DNA of 64,000 nucleotides from an uncultured Flavobacteriales bacterium (GTDB lineage: Bacteria; Bacteroidota; Bacteroidia; Flavobacteriales; BACL11), in assembly GCA_905478555.1 (NCBI GenBank), contig CAJQIZ010000015.1, forward strand, positions 1-64,000, read 5' to 3'. The translations under genes were made by a program, and so were the position numbers. The notes beneath the pieces are model-generated. The model had not been told where the DNA came from and made no database searches. It saw nothing but the letters and a program-made list of their open reading frames with translations. Shown piece after piece: positions 44,580-55,876 of this stretch (its first letter is position 1; each line of letters begins with the position of its first letter).

Positions 44580-46214
44580 TTATGCAAAAACTATCGAACT
44601 TTCTGAGTTGTACCAATGATCATAATTTACCTTATATAATTTTTCTATTGAGTTACGCTTTATTTTCATAGTTGGAGTAAGTAACTTATTTTCAACACTC
44701 CATTCTCCTTTTACAATAATTATATTGTGTAATTTTTCATGAATGTCTAGTTTTGGATTTACTACTTCCAATGAAGTTTGCAAACTTCTAATAAGATCTT
44801 CATTTGATTTTTTTTGTCCTCTATCTGAAAGAACAATTAAAGCAATAGGTTGAGGAAGTCCAACTCCCACCACACAAACTTGTTCTATATTTTTATTAGA
44901 AGAAAGTTTCATTTCAATAGGAGAAGGAGCAACATATTTCCCTTTAGAGGTTTTGAAAATATCTTTCACTCTACCTGTAATAGTCAGAAAACCATTTTCA
45001 TCAATCTCTCCTTCATCTCCTGTATATAACCAACCCTCCTTTATCGTTTCAGAAGTCTGTTTCTCTTCCTTATAATAACCATCCATCAAAGCAACATGTT
45101 TTATAAGTATCTCTTTTTGTTCCGATAGTTTTACATCACAAAAAGGTAAAGCCTGACCTACTGAACCAATTTTAATATTATTCCTAAAACTAACATGCGA
45201 ATAACAAGTATTTTCCGTCATAGCATAAGCCTCTTGTATAGTAATTCCCAAACGAGCAAACCACCTAATAAGCGGAGCGGGAGTTGGAGCGGCACCAGTA
45301 AATATATTTCTAGCTTTACTCAAGCCTAATCCTTTTTGTATTTTCTTTTTTATTAAAGAAGAAACAAAAGGAATAGAAAGTAAAATATTCAATTTTTTCT
45401 GAGGTAATTTTAATAAAATTCCTTGCTGGAATTTAGTCCAAATCCTAGGAACACCTAGAAATACAGATGGTGAAGCAGTGGACAAGTTATCAGCAAAAGT
45501 AGATAAACTTTCTGCAAAGGAAATTTTCCCACCTGTATAAATAGATCCCATTTGAACTAGAAGTCGTTCTGCTATATGACATAAAGGTAAATACGAAAAG
45601 AAGGACTCATCTTTTAAAGGTAAGGAGTTTACTGCATTTGTAGTTGCAAAACTGAAATTATAAAATTTGTGCATCACTCCTTTCGGATCTCCAGTAGTTC
45701 CGGAAGTGTATATAATAGTAGCCATCTCCATTTCATCTCTTACTACATTCTCTAAAAGAGGATCTTTATCTTTTATTAAATCATTCCATTCTGGATAATT
45801 TTCTGAGTAAAACGGATAAGTAATGCAATTCATATCTGCAGGAATTCCACTTTTCATTTTCCCAAAATCATCTAACTTTCCTACGAAAACTATTTTAGTT
45901 TCACTGTGTATTAATATCTTATTTAAAGTATCTGCACTTAAATTTGGGTATAAAGGTACCGAAACATGGCCACTCATCATAATAGCCAAATCACTCATTA
46001 TCCAATGTGCACAATTTTTAGATAGTATTGCGATCTTACTTTTTTCTTCTAAATTTAAACTCTTTATATAAGAAACCATTTTCCTCACTTCACTCATAGT
46101 TTCCTTATAAGTCCAATTGTGCCATATCCCATCAATTGGTTGACTCAAAAAAACTTCATTCTTTTTTTCCACTTCCCACTTGTACATCATTTCTAAAGGG
46201 GATAAATACTTCAT
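44580..46214 (-). CDS. AMP-binding long-chain fatty acid-CoA ligase
   Basis: TIIYTSGTTGDPKGVMHKF; GWLYTGDEGEIDENGFLTITGRVKDIFKTSKGKYVAP. Confidence 0.92.
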   Translation of the reverse strand: MKYLSPLEMMYKWEVEKKNEVFLSQPIDGIWHNWTYKETMSEVRKMVSYIKSLNLEEKSKIAILSKNCAHWIMSDLAIMMSGHVSVPLYPNLSADTLNKILIHSETKIVFVGKLDDFGKMKSGIPADMNCITYPFYSENYPEWNDLIKDKDPLLENVVRDEMEMATIIYTSGTTGDPKGVMHKFYNFSFATTNAVNSLPLKDESFFSYLPLCHIAERLLVQMGSIYTGGKISFAESLSTFADNLSTASPSVFLGVPRIWTKFQQGILLKLPQKKLNILLSIPFVSSLIKKKIQKGLGLSKARNIFTGAAPTPAPLIRWFARLGITIQEAYAMTENTCYSHVSFRNNIKIGSVGQALPFCDVKLSEQKEILIKHVALMDGYYKEEKQTSETIKEGWLYTGDEGEIDENGFLTITGRVKDIFKTSKGKYVAPSPIEMKLSSNKNIEQVCVVGVGLPQPIALIVLSDRGQKKSNEDLIRSLQTSLEVVNPKLDIHEKLHNIIIVKGEWSVENKLLTPTMKIKRNSIEKLYKVNYDHWYNSESSIVFA

Positions 46215-46263
46215 AATTTTAATTTTTTAATATTTGATAAAAATAAACAAATTTTTGTGATTT

Positions 46264-46281
46264 TACTATGCAAGCATAATA
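46264..46281. promoter_or_regulatory. Candidate MarR operator site 1
   Basis: TACTATGC-AA-GCATAATA (7/8 arm match). Confidence 0.65.
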
Positions 46282-46291
46282 TTTTTAATTT

Positions 46292-46309
46292 TACTATGCA
46301 CGCATAGTA
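46292..46309. promoter_or_regulatory. Candidate MarR operator site 2
   Basis: TACTATGC-AC-GCATAGTA (perfect 8-bp arms), 28 bp from site 1. Confidence 0.75.
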
Positions 46310-46317
46310 TTTTTCAT

Positions 46318-46325
46318 TACTTTCG
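46318..46325 (+). promoter_or_regulatory. Candidate -7 element of the marR operon
   Basis: TACTTTCG, one mismatch to TAnnTTTG; site 2 falls in the spacer/-33 area. Confidence 0.4.
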
Positions 46326-46347: not shown

Positions 46348-46776
46348 ATGGAACCAGAAGATACTATTGACTATAACATACGAAAAACTTGGTACAACAT
46401 TACTAAGCTTTACAACCGAACAGCAAACGAATATATGGCAAGTATGGCCTTGGGAATGATTATATTAAACATTGACATAACAGAAGGAACACCTTCCACT
46501 CAACTTGGCCCAAACATGGGAATGGAAGCAACCTCACTATCTAGGTCCCTTAACAAATTAGAAGAAAGTGCTGTAATAATCAGAAAACCAGACCCGAAAG
46601 ACAAAAGAAAAACAGTAATACATTTAACTCCACTTGGCATGGAATGGAGAATAGTAGCAAAAGAAGTTGTTGTAAATTTTAACAATACAATATTCGAACA
46701 TTTTGAAAAAGAAGAAATGGATACCTTCTTTGCTATCCTGAAAAAAATAAATAAAATTATAGATGAAACTAAATAG
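46348..46776 (+). CDS. MarR-family transcriptional regulator
   Basis: GPNMGMEATSLSRSLNKLEESAVIIRKPDPKDKRKTVIHLTPLG winged helix. Confidence 0.92.
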   Translation: MEPEDTIDYNIRKTWYNITKLYNRTANEYMASMALGMIILNIDITEGTPSTQLGPNMGMEATSLSRSLNKLEESAVIIRKPDPKDKRKTVIHLTPLGMEWRIVAKEVVVNFNNTIFEHFEKEEMDTFFAILKKINKIIDETK

Positions 46777-49153
46777 ACACATTAATAAGGTAACGGTAGT
46801 TGGGTCCGGAATAATGGGATCGCGTATTGCTTGCCATTTTGCAAATATTGGAGTAGAGGTTTTACTTTTGGATATTGTTCCTTTTGATTTAACAGATGAA
46901 CAAAAACAAGATAAAACAATAAGAAACTCCATTGTAAATGACGCTTTAACAAGCACCTTAAAAAGCAAACCCTCTCCTATATATAGTAAAGAGTTTGTGA
47001 GCAGGATTATGACAGGAAACTTGGATGATGATTTGCATAAAATTGCAGATGCGGATTGGATTATTGAGGTAGTTGTAGAAAAACTCGATATTAAAAAACA
47101 AGTTTTTGAAAAAATAGAAAAATTTAGAAAAGAGGGAACTCTAATTTCTTCTAACACTTCAGGGATTCCTATTGAAAGTATGATTGACGGAAGGTCAGAT
47201 GATTTTCAGAAACACTTTTGTGGAACACACTTTTTTAATCCTCCAAGATATTTAAAATTATTGGAGATTATTCCTAGTACTAAAACTGATCCAGAAGTTA
47301 CTGATTTCTTAATGAACTATGGAGATAAGTTTTTAGGTAAAGACATGGTACTTTGTAAGGATACTCCTGCATTTATTGCCAACAGAATTGGAGTAGCTAG
47401 TATCTTATCGCTTTTCCATTTGGTAAAAGAGTTAGATTTAACAGTGGAAGAAGTAGATTCATTGAGTGGACCAATTATTGGTCGTCCGAAATCTGCCACT
47501 TTCCGTACTTGCGATTTAGTAGGATTAGATACCTTGATTCATGTTGCCAATGGCGTATATGAAAACTGCCCGGATGATGAAATCAGAAGTAATTTTGAAT
47601 TACCTGATTTTATTACCAAGATGAGTAAGAATAATTGGTTAGGAGATAAAACTAAACAAGGTTTTTATAAAAAATCGAAAGATGCAAATGGAAAAAGAGT
47701 AATTGAAGCGCTTAACTTAAAGACTTTAGAATACGCACCAAAACAAAGAGTTAAATTCGCAACTATTGGAGCAGCAAAACAAGAAGATGACCTTTTAAAG
47801 AGGTTGAAAATATTGGTAAATGGGAAAGATAAAGCCGGAGAATTTTACCGTAAATATTTTTATTCCTCCTTTGCATATGTATCACACAGAATTCCTGAAA
47901 TAACTGATGACCTTTACAAAATTGACAGAGCACTTTCTGCAGGTTTTGGATGGGAAGTTGGTCCTTTTCGAATGTGGGATGCTTTAGAAGTTGAAAAAAC
48001 ACTATCCAAAATGGAGGAAGCAGGATACAAAGCTGCACCTTGGGTTTATGAGATGGTAAAATCAGGAAAAAAATCTTTTTACACAACAGAAAATGGCAGC
48101 TTGAATTACTATAATATTCCATCAAAAGCACAAGAGAAAGTTGCAGGAATGGAGAATTTTATTGTTTTAGATCATATCCGTGAGAACAATACAGTCTGGA
48201 GTAATTCAGGATGTAACCTTACTGATATTGGAGATGGAATTGTAAACCTAGAATGGAGAACAAAAATGAATTCTATCGGAGGAGAAGTTTTAGAAGGGAT
48301 TCAGAAATCCATAGAAATTGCAGAGAAAAATCATAAAGGGTTGGTAATTGCAAACCAAGGAACTAATTTTTCAGTTGGAGCAAATATCGCTATGATATTT
48401 ATGATGGCGATTGAACAAGAATATGAAGAAATTGATTTTGCTGTTCGTGCTTTCCAAAATACAACTGGAAGAATCAGAAACTCTTCTATTCCTGTAGTAG
48501 TTGCAACACACGGAATGACTTTAGGAGGAGGTTGTGAAATTGCATTGCATGCCGATCATGTACAAGCCTCAGCAGAAACTTATATTGGTTTAGTTGAAAT
48601 GGGAGTTGGTGTTATCCCTGGTGGTGGTGGAACAAAAGAAATGGCAAGAAGAGCATCACAAGCTTACTTTTCCGGAGATATAGAATTACCTACTTTAAAA
48701 GAAAGATACTTAAATATTGGAATGGCAAAAGTTGCCACCTCAGCACAAGAAGCAATAGAGTTGGATTTATTGTTAAATAATAGAGATAAAGTAACCGTAG
48801 GATTCAACAACCTAATTACAGATGCAAAAGCAGTAGCACTTAATTTAGCAAACCAAGGGTACACACAAGATGTTCCTGAAAAGATTAAAGCATTAGGAAA
48901 AGCAGGTTTAGGAATGTTTATGGTTGGCGCTCACTCTATGCATGCCGCAGGATACATTACTGAACATGAAAAACTAATGTCCGAAAAATTAGCTTATGCA
49001 ATTTGTGGTGGTGATTTATCAGCACCAACACTAGTTTCTGAACAATATTTATTAGACCTAGAAAGAGAAGCTTTTTTATCCCTTTGTGGAGAAAGAAAAA
49101 CTTTAGAGAGAATTGAGCACATGTTAAAGAAAGGAAAACCATTAAGAAATTAA
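46763..49153 (+). CDS. 3-hydroxyacyl-CoA dehydrogenase / enoyl-CoA hydratase
   Basis: VTVVGSGIMGSRIACHFANIG; GTHFFNPPRYLKLLEIIP; GMTLGGGCEIALHADHVQA. Confidence 0.93.
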   Translation: MKLNRHINKVTVVGSGIMGSRIACHFANIGVEVLLLDIVPFDLTDEQKQDKTIRNSIVNDALTSTLKSKPSPIYSKEFVSRIMTGNLDDDLHKIADADWIIEVVVEKLDIKKQVFEKIEKFRKEGTLISSNTSGIPIESMIDGRSDDFQKHFCGTHFFNPPRYLKLLEIIPSTKTDPEVTDFLMNYGDKFLGKDMVLCKDTPAFIANRIGVASILSLFHLVKELDLTVEEVDSLSGPIIGRPKSATFRTCDLVGLDTLIHVANGVYENCPDDEIRSNFELPDFITKMSKNNWLGDKTKQGFYKKSKDANGKRVIEALNLKTLEYAPKQRVKFATIGAAKQEDDLLKRLKILVNGKDKAGEFYRKYFYSSFAYVSHRIPEITDDLYKIDRALSAGFGWEVGPFRMWDALEVEKTLSKMEEAGYKAAPWVYEMVKSGKKSFYTTENGSLNYYNIPSKAQEKVAGMENFIVLDHIRENNTVWSNSGCNLTDIGDGIVNLEWRTKMNSIGGEVLEGIQKSIEIAEKNHKGLVIANQGTNFSVGANIAMIFMMAIEQEYEEIDFAVRAFQNTTGRIRNSSIPVVVATHGMTLGGGCEIALHADHVQASAETYIGLVEMGVGVIPGGGGTKEMARRASQAYFSGDIELPTLKERYLNIGMAKVATSAQEAIELDLLLNNRDKVTVGFNNLITDAKAVALNLANQGYTQDVPEKIKALGKAGLGMFMVGAHSMHAAGYITEHEKLMSEKLAYAICGGDLSAPTLVSEQYLLDLEREAFLSLCGERKTLERIEHMLKKGKPLRN

Positions 49154-49157
49154 AATT

Positions 49158-50336
49158 ATGAATACAGCATATATAGTAGCAGGATACCGATCAGCAGTAG
49201 GGAAATCAGGAAAAGGAGTTTTTAAATTCACTCGCCCTGATGATTTGGCAGCAGATGTAATTAAACATTTAGTAGCATCAGTTCCTGAATTAGATAAGGA
49301 TAAAATTGATGATGTAATTTGTGGAAACGCAACTCCTGAGGCAGAGCAAGGTTTAAACATTGGGCGTATGATTTCCTTAATGGGATTAGATACCATAAAA
49401 GTTCCCGGAATGACCGTAAACAGATATTGTTCTTCAGGCCTAGAAACAATTGCCATTGCAAATGCAAAAATACAAAGTGGAATGGCCGATTGCATCATTG
49501 CTGGTGGAGTGGAATGCATGTCCCCTATCCCATTTGGGGGATGGAGAATTATACCAAATTATGATATCGCAAAAAATAATTCGGATTGGTATTGGAACAT
49601 GGGACTTACAGCAGAAGCAGTTGCTAATAAATGGAATATTAGCAGAAAAGACCAAGATGAATTCGCTTTTAACTCTCACCGAAAAGCATTAAACGCTATT
49701 GAAAAGGGATATTTTAAAAGTGGGATTGTTCCTATTACTGTAAAAGAAACTTACCTTGACAAAAACGAAAAGAGACAAGAAAGAGAATACATTGTGGATA
49801 CAGATGAAGGACCAAGAAAAGGAGGTTCTGCTGAAGCATTAGGAAAGTTAAGAACTGTATTTGCACAAGAAGGAACAGTAACGGCAGCAAATGCATCACA
49901 AACTTCTGATGGTGCAGCATTTGTTATTTTGATGTCAGAAAAAATGGTGAACGAATTAGGTGTAAAACCAATTGCAAAACTATTGAGTTATTCGGTAGCA
50001 GGGGTGGAACCAAAACACATGGGAATCGGCCCTGTAAAAGCAATACCAATGGCACTTAAAAAAGCAGGATTAAAACTAGAAGATATTGAGCAATTTGAAT
50101 TAAATGAAGCCTTTGCTTCACAATCCTTAGCGGTTATTCGTGAGTTAAGATTAAACCCAGAAATTGTAAATGTAAATGGAGGAGCGATTGCTTTAGGACA
50201 TCCATTAGGGTGCACGGGAGGAAAACTAACAGTTCAATTAATTAACGAAATGAAAAGAAGAAATCAGAAATACGGAATGGTTACCATGTGTGTAGGAGCA
50301 GGACAAGGTTCAGCCGGAGTATTTCAAATTCTTTAA
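49158..50336 (+). CDS. Acetyl-CoA acyltransferase (thiolase)
   Basis: VNRYCSSGLETIAIA; NVNGGAIALGHPLGCTGGKL; CVGAGQGSAGVF. Confidence 0.95.
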   Translation: MNTAYIVAGYRSAVGKSGKGVFKFTRPDDLAADVIKHLVASVPELDKDKIDDVICGNATPEAEQGLNIGRMISLMGLDTIKVPGMTVNRYCSSGLETIAIANAKIQSGMADCIIAGGVECMSPIPFGGWRIIPNYDIAKNNSDWYWNMGLTAEAVANKWNISRKDQDEFAFNSHRKALNAIEKGYFKSGIVPITVKETYLDKNEKRQEREYIVDTDEGPRKGGSAEALGKLRTVFAQEGTVTAANASQTSDGAAFVILMSEKMVNELGVKPIAKLLSYSVAGVEPKHMGIGPVKAIPMALKKAGLKLEDIEQFELNEAFASQSLAVIRELRLNPEIVNVNGGAIALGHPLGCTGGKLTVQLINEMKRRNQKYGMVTMCVGAGQGSAGVFQIL

Positions 50337-50378: not shown

Positions 50379-52154
50379 ATGATAAAAGGAGGAGAGTTTT
50401 TAATAAAAGACCAAGAAGCAAAAGATATTTTTATTCCAGAAGAGTTTAGAGAGGATCAATTGATGATGGCATCAGCAACCAAAGAATTCGTTGAAAAAGA
50501 ACTGGACCCTCACAGGCAAAGATTTGAAAAGAAAGATTACAAACTAACAGAGGAATGCATGAAAAATGCAGGAGAACTAGGACTATTAGGAATTAGCGTA
50601 CCTGCAGAATACGGAGGAATGGGTATGCCATTCAATACTTCCGTACTTATTTGTGATAAAATATCAGGTGCAAATGGATCATTTTCAACTGCATTTGGGG
50701 CACATACAGGAATTGGCACTTTACCAATTTTACTTTATGGTGATGATGCGCAAAGAGAAAAATACTTACCAAAATTAGCCTCTGGTGAGTGGATGGGATG
50801 TTATTGTTTAACAGAACCAGGAGCAGGTTCGGATGCAAATTCAGGAAAAACAAAAGCGGTACTTACTGAAGATGGAAAACACTACCTTATTACAGGACAA
50901 AAAATGTGGATTTCGAATGCAGGATTTGCAGATGTATTCATAGTATTTGCCAGAATTGAAGACGATAAAAATATTACTAGTTTCATTCTAGAAAAAGGAA
51001 TGGACGGAATTACTTTAGGTGAGGAAGAAAATAAATTAGGATTGAACTCTTCCTCTACTCGTCAAGTATTTTTTAATGATGTAAAAGTTCCTATTGAAAG
51101 TCTTTTAGGAGGTAGAGAAAATGGATTTAAAATTGCAATGAATGCACTTAATGTGGGGAGAATTAAACTTTCGGCAGCAGTATTGGATGCTTGTAGAAGA
51201 GTAATTAGCCTTTCTACTAACTATTCTAATGAACGTATACAGTTCGGAATTCCTATCTCTAAATTTGGAGCGATAAAGCATAAACTAGCTGATATGGCAG
51301 TAAAAACTTTTGCAGTTGAATCGGCAACTTACCGTGCAGGTGCAGAAATTGAAAAAAATATCCAAAGATTAGAATCAGAAGGAGTAGATCTTCAGAAAGC
51401 ACACCTTAAAGGAATTGAAGAATATGCAATTGAATGTTCTATCGTAAAAGTATTAGGTTCGGACACCATACAATTCTGTTCGGATGAAGGAATTCAGATT
51501 TATGGAGGAATGGGATATTCGGCAGATGCACCTATGGAGGCAGCATATCGTGATGCAAGAATTTCAAGAATATATGAAGGAACAAACGAAATCAATAAAA
51601 TGTTATTAGTAGGCATGATACTTAAAAAAGCCATGAAAGGCGAATTGGATATTATGACTCCAGCAATGAAAGTTGCTGAGGACTTAATGAGTATCCCCTC
51701 TATTAACAAACCTGATGATAGTATCCTTTTTGAAGTTGAGAAAGAATATATTAAAAAACTGAAAAGAGCAATTTTGATGTGTGCAGGAAAAGCAGCACAA
51801 CATTTCGCTATGACAATTGAAAGAGAACAAGAAGTTATGATGAACTTGGCAGATATGGTAATAGAGGTTTATACTGCAGAATCTACAATTTTAAGAGCAG
51901 AAAAACTAGCTATTAAAAATAGAGAAGAAACTACAGAACATCAAATTACAATGAGCAAATTATTTTTATATCAAGCCATTAGAAACTGTAACCAATCAGG
52001 TGAAGAAGTAATATTATCTTTTGCTGAAGGAGACGAACAAAAAATGTTATTAATGGGATTAAAACGATTCACAAAAGGATATACAATTAACCCAAAAGAA
52101 ATGAGAAGAAATATTGCAGCAAAACTAATTGAAGAGAATAAGTATTGTTTTTAA
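50379..52154 (+). CDS. Acyl-CoA dehydrogenase
   Basis: CYCLTEPGAGSDANSGKTKA; IQIYGGMGYSADAPMEAAYRDARISRIYEGTNEINK. Confidence 0.95.
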   Translation: MIKGGEFLIKDQEAKDIFIPEEFREDQLMMASATKEFVEKELDPHRQRFEKKDYKLTEECMKNAGELGLLGISVPAEYGGMGMPFNTSVLICDKISGANGSFSTAFGAHTGIGTLPILLYGDDAQREKYLPKLASGEWMGCYCLTEPGAGSDANSGKTKAVLTEDGKHYLITGQKMWISNAGFADVFIVFARIEDDKNITSFILEKGMDGITLGEEENKLGLNSSSTRQVFFNDVKVPIESLLGGRENGFKIAMNALNVGRIKLSAAVLDACRRVISLSTNYSNERIQFGIPISKFGAIKHKLADMAVKTFAVESATYRAGAEIEKNIQRLESEGVDLQKAHLKGIEEYAIECSIVKVLGSDTIQFCSDEGIQIYGGMGYSADAPMEAAYRDARISRIYEGTNEINKMLLVGMILKKAMKGELDIMTPAMKVAEDLMSIPSINKPDDSILFEVEKEYIKKLKRAILMCAGKAAQHFAMTIEREQEVMMNLADMVIEVYTAESTILRAEKLAIKNREETTEHQITMSKLFLYQAIRNCNQSGEEVILSFAEGDEQKMLLMGLKRFTKGYTINPKEMRRNIAAKLIEENKYCF

Positions 52155-52164
52155 GATTTATGAA

Positions 52165-52968
52165 ATGACAAAAATCAAAAACAAAACCATACTAATTACT
52201 GGGGGTGCTTCTGGAATTGGAAAGATTATGAGTCGTTTATCCTTAGCCCGTAAGGCAAAAGTTATTATTTGGGATATTAATACTGAAAACATAGAAAGCA
52301 CCTTAAAAGAGTTAAATCCTTTAGGAAATATTTCTGCTGATGAAGTGGATGTTTCTAAGCATGAACTAATAGAAGAAGCGGCACAACAACTCATAAAAGA
52401 ACATGGGAATATTGACATCATCATCAACAATGCAGGAATAGTTGTAGGAAAATATTTTCATGAACATACTGCATCAGAAATTGATAAAACACTAAACATT
52501 AACAGTTCCGCTCCTATGCATATTTGCAATCAGTTTTTAGGAATTATGATTAAAAATAATTCTGGTCATATCTGTAATATAGCCTCATCAGCTAGTTTAG
52601 TTTCTAATCCTAAAATGTCAGTTTATGCAGCAAGTAAATGGGCAATTTTCGCATGGTCCGATAGTTTACGTTTGGAAATGAAACAACTAAAAAAAGACAT
52701 TAAAATCACTACTATCCTCCCCTACTTCATCAATACAGGAATGTTTGAAGGGGTGAAATCCCGCATACCTATTTTGGAGGCAGAAACAGCTGCACTTACT
52801 ATTATTAAAGCAATAGAAAAAAACAAAAAAATTATTAGTATTCCTGGTTGGATTTATCGTTTTACTCGTTTCGGACAAACCCTAATGTCGGTAGATATAT
52901 TTGATTGGTTTGCAGGAAGCGTTATGGGAATCTATAAAACTATGAATGATTTTAAAGGTAGAAAATAA
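52165..52968 (+). CDS. SDR-family oxidoreductase
   Basis: ILITGGASGIGKIMSR; IIINNAGIV; YAASKWAI; start set at MTKIKNKT. Confidence 0.9.
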   Translation: MTKIKNKTILITGGASGIGKIMSRLSLARKAKVIIWDINTENIESTLKELNPLGNISADEVDVSKHELIEEAAQQLIKEHGNIDIIINNAGIVVGKYFHEHTASEIDKTLNINSSAPMHICNQFLGIMIKNNSGHICNIASSASLVSNPKMSVYAASKWAIFAWSDSLRLEMKQLKKDIKITTILPYFINTGMFEGVKSRIPILEAETAALTIIKAIEKNKKIISIPGWIYRFTRFGQTLMSVDIFDWFAGSVMGIYKTMNDFKGRK

Positions 52969-52986: not shown

Positions 52987-54357
52987 ATGGATATACCAAA
53001 AATTGTAAATCAGCAAAAATGTTTCTTTAATTCTAACTGCACAAAAGAGGTCACTCTCAGAATTAACACCTTAAAAAAACTAAAAAATGTAATAAAAGAA
53101 AATGAAAAAGAGTTGTATAAAGCAATTTACACAGATTTTAAAAAATCGGAATTTGAAACTTATATAACAGAAATTGCTCTTATTTACAATGAGTTAAATG
53201 ATGCCATTAAAAACCTTAAAAGATGGAGTAAGCAAAAAAGAGTAAGAACCAACCTTGCAAATTTCCCTGCTAAAAGTTATATCATCCCAGAACCATTGGG
53301 AACTATTTTAGTGATTTCCGCTTGGAATTACCCTTATCAAATTGCACTTATTCCTGTTATTTCGGCAATAGCAGCAGGAAATACTGTAGTGATAAAACCT
53401 TCTGAAATTCCGAATAATACAAGTAGGATATTAGCAAAAATAATCAACACTAATTTTGATGCGAATCATTTTACTGTAGTGGAAGGATCAGTAGAAACTA
53501 CAACAGAATTATTAAAACAAAAATGGGATAAGATATTCTTTACAGGAAGTACTAGTGTAGGAAGAATCGTTTATAAAGCAGCAGCAGAAAATTTAACTCC
53601 AGTCACTTTGGAATTAGGAGGAAAAAGCCCTACTTTTATTTTTAAGGATTGCGATATAAAACTCACTGCAAAACGAATTGTTTGGGCTAAGTTTTTAAAT
53701 GCAGGACAAACTTGCATTGCCCCCGATTATTTGTTAGTAGAAAAAGAAATAGAACAACAATTGTTATCATCTCTAAAATCAGAAATAGAAATTGCTTATC
53801 CTGTTAATAATACAATCAATGAAAATTATGTGCAAATTATTAATGATGCACATTTCGATAGGTTAAGCAATCTTATTCCAAAAGATAAAATCTATTTTGG
53901 AGGAGAACAAAACGCATCTGAAAGAATAATACGACCTACCCTTTTGCAAAATATTAGTTTTGAGGACCCTATAATGAAAGATGAAATTTTCGGACCATTA
54001 CTCCCTATCATTTCCTTTGAAAACCTAGATAAAGTAATTACAAAAGTAAAGGCAAAAGAAAAACCACTTTCCTTATATATTTATAGTAAAAATAAAAAAA
54101 TAATCCGGAAAACATTGCACGAAATCTCTTTTGGAGGAGGTGCTATTAACGAATCCTTAGTTCACCTTTCTAACCCTAATTTACCTTTTGGTGGTGTAGG
54201 TACAAGCGGAATAGGAAACTATCATTCCAAAGCAGGTTTTGACACTTTTACGCATTATAAAAGTATTTTACATAAATCATTTTTGTTTGAACCCAATTTG
54301 AAATACACTCCTTTCACAAAATGGAAAAGACAAATTGTTAAGTTTATTTTAGAGTAA
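52987..54357 (+). CDS. Aldehyde dehydrogenase family protein
   Basis: ISAWNYPYQIALIPVISAIAAGNTVVIKPSE; TLELGGKSPTFI; NAGQTCIAPDY. Confidence 0.94.
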   Translation: MDIPKIVNQQKCFFNSNCTKEVTLRINTLKKLKNVIKENEKELYKAIYTDFKKSEFETYITEIALIYNELNDAIKNLKRWSKQKRVRTNLANFPAKSYIIPEPLGTILVISAWNYPYQIALIPVISAIAAGNTVVIKPSEIPNNTSRILAKIINTNFDANHFTVVEGSVETTTELLKQKWDKIFFTGSTSVGRIVYKAAAENLTPVTLELGGKSPTFIFKDCDIKLTAKRIVWAKFLNAGQTCIAPDYLLVEKEIEQQLLSSLKSEIEIAYPVNNTINENYVQIINDAHFDRLSNLIPKDKIYFGGEQNASERIIRPTLLQNISFEDPIMKDEIFGPLLPIISFENLDKVITKVKAKEKPLSLYIYSKNKKIIRKTLHEISFGGGAINESLVHLSNPNLPFGGVGTSGIGNYHSKAGFDTFTHYKSILHKSFLFEPNLKYTPFTKWKRQIVKFILE

Positions 54358-54670: not shown

Positions 54671-55876
54671 ATGAAATTTACAGAATTTAAGTTTGGAAAC
54701 GAACTACAAGAAGGGTTAGATATGATGGGATTTGAAAAAGCTACCCAAATACAAGAACAAGCAATACCTATAATACAAGAAGGAACAGATTTAATAGCAT
54801 GTGCGCAAACAGGAACAGGAAAAACAGCTGCATTTGTTTTACCTATTTTGGATAAGTTAACCAAAACAAACACCAACAAAGTAAACACTATAATTGTGGC
54901 TCCTACTAGAGAACTTGCAAAACAAATTGACAGACAAATTGAAGGATTTTCATACTTCACTAATTCGTCATCTTACCCAATTTACGGTGGTGGAACTGGA
55001 GTAGAATTCGACAACCAAAAACAAGCTTTAAAAAAAGGATCTGATATTATTATATGTACTCCTGGTAGATTACTAGCTCATTTAGACTTTAACTATTTTG
55101 ACACTTCTGGAGTAAAACATTTTATTTTAGATGAAGCAGACAGAATGTTAGATATGGGCTTTTATGATGATATAATGAAAATTGCTAATGCTTTACCTAA
55201 AGACAGACAAAATCTTTTGTTCTCGGCAACCATGCCACCAAAAATAAGAACACTTGCTACTAGTTTACTTAAAAATCCTAAAAGTATATCTTTAGCAATT
55301 TCAAAACCAGCGGAAGGACTTACACAAAATGCTTATATGATTCACGACAATCAGAAAGTAAGATTAGTACGAGAACTTTTAAAGGCAAAAAGAAAGGATT
55401 TAAGTCATGTGTTAATTTTTGCATCCAGCATAAAAAGTGTTAAGGAGATAAAAACTACTTTAAATAAAGCTGGAATGAGAGCATCTGAAATGCACTCAGG
55501 ATTAGATCAAGATCAAAGAGAAGAAACTATAAGAGATTTTAAAAATAAAAAAATACGAATTTTAGTAGCTACCGATATTTTATCTAGAGGAATAGATATT
55601 AAAGGAATTGAACTAGTGATAAACTATGAAGTACCTCATGATGCTGAGGATTATGTACACAGAATTGGAAGAACAGCAAGGGCAGACAGAACTGGAGAAG
55701 CCATTACTTTCATAAACCCAAGACAAGTGAAAAACTTTATGGATATTGAAAAGCTAATTGAAAAAGCGGTACCTAAATTAGATTTACCAAATGGTTTTGA
55801 AAAAGGACCTGAATATACAATTCAACAAAGAAACAATAAAAAGAAGTGGGGAAATTTTAAAAAGAAACACAATTAG
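54671..55876 (+). CDS. DEAD-box RNA helicase
   Basis: ACAQTGTGKTAAFVLP; LDEADRMLDMGF; SAT; HRIGRTARA. Confidence 0.95.
   Translation: MKFTEFKFGNELQEGLDMMGFEKATQIQEQAIPIIQEGTDLIACAQTGTGKTAAFVLPILDKLTKTNTNKVNTIIVAPTRELAKQIDRQIEGFSYFTNSSSYPIYGGGTGVEFDNQKQALKKGSDIIICTPGRLLAHLDFNYFDTSGVKHFILDEADRMLDMGFYDDIMKIANALPKDRQNLLFSATMPPKIRTLATSLLKNPKSISLAISKPAEGLTQNAYMIHDNQKVRLVRELLKAKRKDLSHVLIFASSIKSVKEIKTTLNKAGMRASEMHSGLDQDQREETIRDFKNKKIRILVATDILSRGIDIKGIELVINYEVPHDAEDYVHRIGRTARADRTGEAITFINPRQVKNFMDIEKLIEKAVPKLDLPNGFEKGPEYTIQQRNNKKKWGNFKKKHN

Follow-up and report, generated by a model that had tools for sequence, protein, structure and literature searches.

Which protein reads the two palindromes that lie between a fatty-acid activation gene and a divergent beta-oxidation operon in an uncultured Flavobacteriales bacterium, and what would it control from there? 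The locus belongs to a stretch of 64,000 nucleotides, the whole of which we call the window. Judged from sequence comparison, the palindromes are very probably docking sites for the product of the marR gene that lies next to them.

The locus and its two palindromes

Gene calls and Pfam domains agree on the arrangement described in an earlier note on this DNA, namely a ligase on the minus strand divergent from a plus-strand series marR-HADH/ECH-thiolase-ACAD-SDR-ALDH. The ligase is a FadD-like fatty-acyl-CoA ligase (44580..46214, minus strand; AMP-binding, 1.5e-59). The presumed operon on the plus strand opens with the gene for a MarR-family regulator of 142 aa (46348..46776; HTH_27 and MarR above the Pfam cut-offs), followed by a FadB-like fused 3-hydroxyacyl-CoA dehydrogenase / enoyl-CoA hydratase (HADH; 46763..49153; 3HCDH_N, 3HCDH, ECH_1), a FadA-like acetyl-CoA C-acyltransferase (thiolase; 49158..50336; Thiolase_N/C, with TIGR01930 above its cut-off), a FadE-like acyl-CoA dehydrogenase (ACAD; 50379..52154; Acyl-CoA_dh domains, with NF058590 FadE above its cut-off), a short-chain dehydrogenase (SDR; 52162..52968; adh_short, 1.4e-46) and, as its last gene, an aldehyde dehydrogenase (ALDH; 52987..54357; Aldedh, 1.3e-83).

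Re-reading of the sequence and a pattern scan placed a palindrome pair between the ligase and the marR operon, as the earlier note had claimed. Operator 1, on the ligase side, is TACTATGCAAGCATAATA (46264..46281), that is TACTATGC-AA-GCATAATA with one mismatch. Operator 2, on the marR side, is TACTATGCACGCATAGTA (46292..46309), that is TACTATGC-AC-GCATAGTA, a perfect 8+2+8 palindrome with the core TATGCACGCATA at 46295-46306. Their described distance of 28 bp is correct from start to start, but not as a gap, which measures 10 bp.

Palindromes may also arise by chance within AT-rich intergenic DNA, and the window by itself shows a modest excess: a scan allowing up to three mismatches gave 2 matches, which are operators 1 and 2, against 0.18 expected, and 2 of 100 shuffled windows reached 2 matches as well. 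Over the whole genome (1.79 Mb assembly, 99 % complete), the pattern WNTATGCNNGCATANW was matched at the two window sites only, and its reversed control had 0 matches in the same 1.79 Mb.

Conservation of the core upstream of marR in Bacteroidia

MarR relatives came from a genome collection and from whole-genome sequences within the order and the class, and the upstream DNA was read at every locus taken. After identical proteins had been merged, 136 distinct marR orthologues remained, and in 108 of them the exact core TATGCNNGCATA is found at most 200 bp upstream, or in 116 if one mismatch is allowed; these are related sequences, so the counts are not independent. Shuffled upstream DNA gave an expectation of 0.02 core matches, and the exact core was absent from all control segments of the same loci, whether inside marR (0/136), 500-700 bp downstream (0/135) or 400-600 bp upstream (0/132). 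Because the core is kept upstream of marR orthologues while the controls yield nothing, the sites are not due to chance, an explanation that we count as refuted. The earlier note had staked its reading on the motif being present at orthologous loci, which is what phylogenetic footprinting found.

Besides the window's own family, Myroides and Flavobacterium have the core before marR, and so do many other families of Bacteroidia. In most loci marR is linked to the start of HADH, and the upstream gene varies by family. Operator 1 is kept in the closest relatives only, being degenerate or missing elsewhere. Some families have layouts of their own. At L206 (G106) the place of the usual core, 52 bp before marR, is taken by a symmetric variant, TATGTTTACATA, suggesting that the family has a shifted operator, and at L239, L240, L242-L244 and L246, all of one family, two operators lie 83 bp apart upstream of marR, as against 28 bp for the window's pair.

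Operator loss and the MarR protein

We took advantage of the 37 marR-bearing genomes of the window's family to relate the operator to HADH. The operator is kept in 18/18 genomes with HADH and missing in 10/19 without detected HADH (Fisher p=4e-4, uncorrected for kinship), some of these 19 assemblies being incomplete, such as G047, whose contig ends in marR. Every operator-less marR-bearing genome of the family (10/10) is thus without HADH. In eight HADH-less loci (L021, L023, L024, L029, L253, L254, L256 and L258) marR is followed by a DEAD-box helicase gene with no HADH between them; in the window the DEAD-box helicase gene (54671-55876) is the next one after ALDH. A short scar remains at L258 (G036) between the end of marR (4091) and the helicase gene, in which the start of HADH runs directly into the C-terminal ~45 residues of ACAD. 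As the marR-HADH linkage is widespread in Bacteroidia, loss of HADH is the simpler reading, and the loss of the operator in HADH-less genomes amounts to a natural deletion test of operator function.

The regulator itself belongs to the MarR family by Pfam (MarR, 27.4 bits for a cut-off of 24.6; HTH_27, 29.8 bits for a cut-off of 22.2). Its AlphaFold monomer model (mean pLDDT 88.8) has a MarR fold, and its best Foldseek matches belong to the MarR family (TM up to 0.86), with MarR, MepR, CouR and FabT structures among them; the predicted structure confirms the fold and says nothing of the ligand. In the protein alignment, S63 and R66 of the recognition helix are invariant. No recognition-helix change follows operator loss across the whole set of 136 proteins. 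A link between loss of N56 and loss of the operator, suggested by the first 27 sequences, was dropped, as this position varies (K, N, L, R) with the operator present too among the 136 proteins.

Co-occurrence of motif and marR, and the candidate regulon

We then counted motifs against their reversed control in 149 genomes: 203 versus 36 in the 93 genomes with marR, and 20 versus 11 in the 56 without. At least one site was present in 72/93 genomes with marR and in 15/56 without it (Fisher p=2e-9, uncorrected for kinship or genome size). That motif abundance tracks the presence of marR argues against binding by some other transcription factor, to which one might turn on seeing that in two genomes, G015 and G049, sites are present although no marR was detected. 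The best-kept position also argues against it, as this lies before marR itself, across many families whose neighbouring genes are otherwise different. We therefore hold another binder to be very unlikely, and retain the adjacent MarR.

Seven larger genomes, picked for their many sites, were read site by site. In 7/7 a site lies upstream of marR and another upstream of a 248-aa protein (246-aa in one), which is EtfB by sequence in 5/7 (the Pfam ETF domain was tested on one) and by like length and layout in 2/7. Besides etfB(A), the genes preceded by a site in larger Flavobacteriales encode an ACAD 65-67 % identical to that of the window, a FadL-like porin, a dienoyl-CoA-reductase-like SDR, lipases/esterases, KAS III proteins, nitronate-monooxygenase-like (NMO-like) proteins and SusC-type receptors. 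Within the window's family the extra targets comprise BD-FAE esterases, one secretory-lipase-like protein and one NMO-like protein. Matches inside genes occur too, presumably by chance; like those at SusC-type receptor genes, they weigh against the proposed reading. At L138, L156 and L147 the motif lies before genes for KAS III (FabH-like), and twice a hairpin-like stretch comes immediately after it; these sites may lie near the terminator of the preceding gene and not in a promoter. In G015 and G049, the sites are found before lipase/esterase and NMO-like genes (L097, L131, L134, L136), and neither marR nor HADH was detected in either assembly, perhaps through assembly gaps or recent loss.

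The enrichment upstream of lipid genes that the earlier note proposed to look for by a genome scan is seen in relatives only and finds no support in the window's own genome. There, the core with at most one mismatch occurs 35 times against 24 for the control, which is little excess, the two other exact cores are intragenic, and no other lipid gene was found with a site, etfB having none. Two candidates were rejected: (i) a BD-FAE esterase relative of this genome, whose upstream region is without a site, and (ii) a site with 2 mismatches near etfB, on contig 31, which falls within a pyrophosphatase-like gene and not close to a promoter. The regulon in the window's own genome appears limited to the locus of the local pair.

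Promoter geometry and proposed mechanism

A candidate Bacteroidetes -7 box for the marR operon, TACTTTCG (46318..46325, plus strand), lies 11 bp past the core of operator 2 and 8 bp past the end of the whole site. This core-to--7 spacing puts operator 2 between -33 and -7 of the putative promoter, a classic blocking position. The spacing is largely fixed in relatives: 93/116 loci have a TAnnTT[TCA]G box after the site, with a core-to-box gap of 10-12 bp in 66/93. On the other strand, a candidate ligase -7 box, TATTTTTA (46238..46245, minus strand), is a weak match to TAnnTTTG, and TAYTTTTA is kept at this position in close relatives. Operator 1 lies ~19 bp upstream of this box, with its centre (46272.5) ~27 bp upstream, over the would-be -33 region. 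Control of both directions, as the earlier note had it, is partly supported: site 1 has its position at the would-be ligase -33, but in many relatives that site is missing or degenerate.

Described members of the MarR family bind palindromic sites lying over -35 boxes, and CoA thioesters free several of them (PMC4737184, PMC5487221). We consider it likely that the MarR of the window is an autoregulated repressor of fatty-acid activation and beta-oxidation. We infer that this protein is the binder, that its effect is repression (from the geometry) and that its inducer is an acyl-CoA (from pathway logic). A dimer of MarR (46348-46776) would sit on the TATGCNNGCATA palindromes; with operator 2 occupied between -33 and -7 its own operon would be repressed, and with operator 1 occupied over the -33 region so would the divergent acyl-CoA ligase. 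When fatty acids enter, the ligase would make acyl-CoA, and acyl-CoA or a beta-oxidation intermediate would free the repressor, its release turning on activation and beta-oxidation together. The claim that the palindromes are operators of the adjacent MarR is supported by footprinting, by the co-occurrence of motif and gene, by the fixed spacing to the -7 box and by lipid genes as the other targets.

The spacing to the -7 box falls into two classes, the 16-mer ending 6-10 bp before it where the gene is marR or a lipase/esterase, but 17-25 bp before it in most etfB promoters, as seen in the larger genomes, and ~19 bp before it at the ligase. One might speculate that the regulator has a dual function, as a repressor at proximal sites (marR and lipases, ~-28) and as an activator at distal ones (ligase and etfB, ~-38 to -45), since the distal position is where class II activators sit. 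However, this position covers -33 as well, so that plain repression accounts for the spacing, the ligase -7 box is weakly defined, and most MarR proteins are repressors (PMC5487221). A dual function is thus unlikely, and we favour repression at both operators.

MarR ligands are diverse, HcaR possibly binding an unesterified ligand and CouR binding p-coumaroyl-CoA (PMC5487221), and the operon includes an SDR and an ALDH as well, so the part of inducer given to long-chain acyl-CoA could fall instead to a free fatty acid or to a non-fatty acyl-CoA, for example a branched or an aromatic thioester. The lipases, FadL-like porin, Etf and FadE-like ACAD of the regulon favour ordinary fatty acids, and the ligase is itself a likely target, fitting a product-sensing loop; we judge another type of inducer possible but rather improbable, and prefer long-chain acyl-CoA.

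More broadly, an ancient MarR with one operator code (TATGCNNGCATA) over many families could be the general fatty-acid utilisation switch of the class Bacteroidia. It would bring uptake at the outer membrane into step with secreted lipases, with activation and beta-oxidation, and with electron transfer, acting as a repressor from proximal sites and possibly as an activator from distal ones. We offer this extension tentatively, the chances being close to balanced and slightly against it.

Comparison with known systems

Good descriptions exist of how Proteobacteria and some Gram-positives control fatty-acid degradation. FadR in E. coli, and PsrA and FadP in Proteobacteria, keep fatty-acid degradation genes repressed until acyl-CoA builds up. 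The role proposed here for the MarR of the window is the same, but those regulators belong to the GntR and TetR families, with other operators and in other phyla; Pfam finds only MarR-type domains in the window's protein, with neither the GntR DNA-binding and FadR acyl-CoA domains nor TetR_N. The description of the locus as a FadR-like switch of a different family is apt as a functional analogy. In the open literature searched, subscription papers being outside its reach, we found no description of a MarR regulator of beta-oxidation in Bacteroidia, nor any account of how this class regulates fatty-acid degradation, and the candidate master switch of fatty-acid use would apparently be undescribed so far. 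Bacteroidia are major degraders of marine particulate matter. The operator code and the candidate regulon allow prediction of lipid-use genes in genomes of uncultured organisms and, together with the orthologue group, bring the control within reach of direct tests in cultured strains of Flavobacterium or Myroides.

Among MarR-type regulators, the nearest named NCBIfam model is BilQ (NF045593), the bilirubin utilisation regulator, of which the window's protein is not a member (E=1.3e-12, 47.6 bits for a cut-off of 125). FabT of Streptococcus and Enterococcus shares the MarR fold (6jbx), is encoded within the lipid operon that it regulates and senses an acyl thioester (PMC5487221, PMC13046290); however, this Firmicutes protein acts as a repressor of fatty-acid synthesis, its co-repressor being long-chain acyl-ACP, which is the opposite logic. 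CouR of Rhodococcus jostii and Rhodopseudomonas palustris resembles the proposed system in its MarR fold, its palindromic operator over promoter elements, its divergent control and its catabolic regulon (PMC4737184), but it governs hydroxycinnamate catabolism from the operator cATTGA-N5-TCAATg, and the Foldseek matches are 17-20 % identical to the window's MarR model. The inducer of CouR is a CoA thioester (PMC4737184), and release by a CoA thioester would be expected for the MarR of the window from the content of its regulon.
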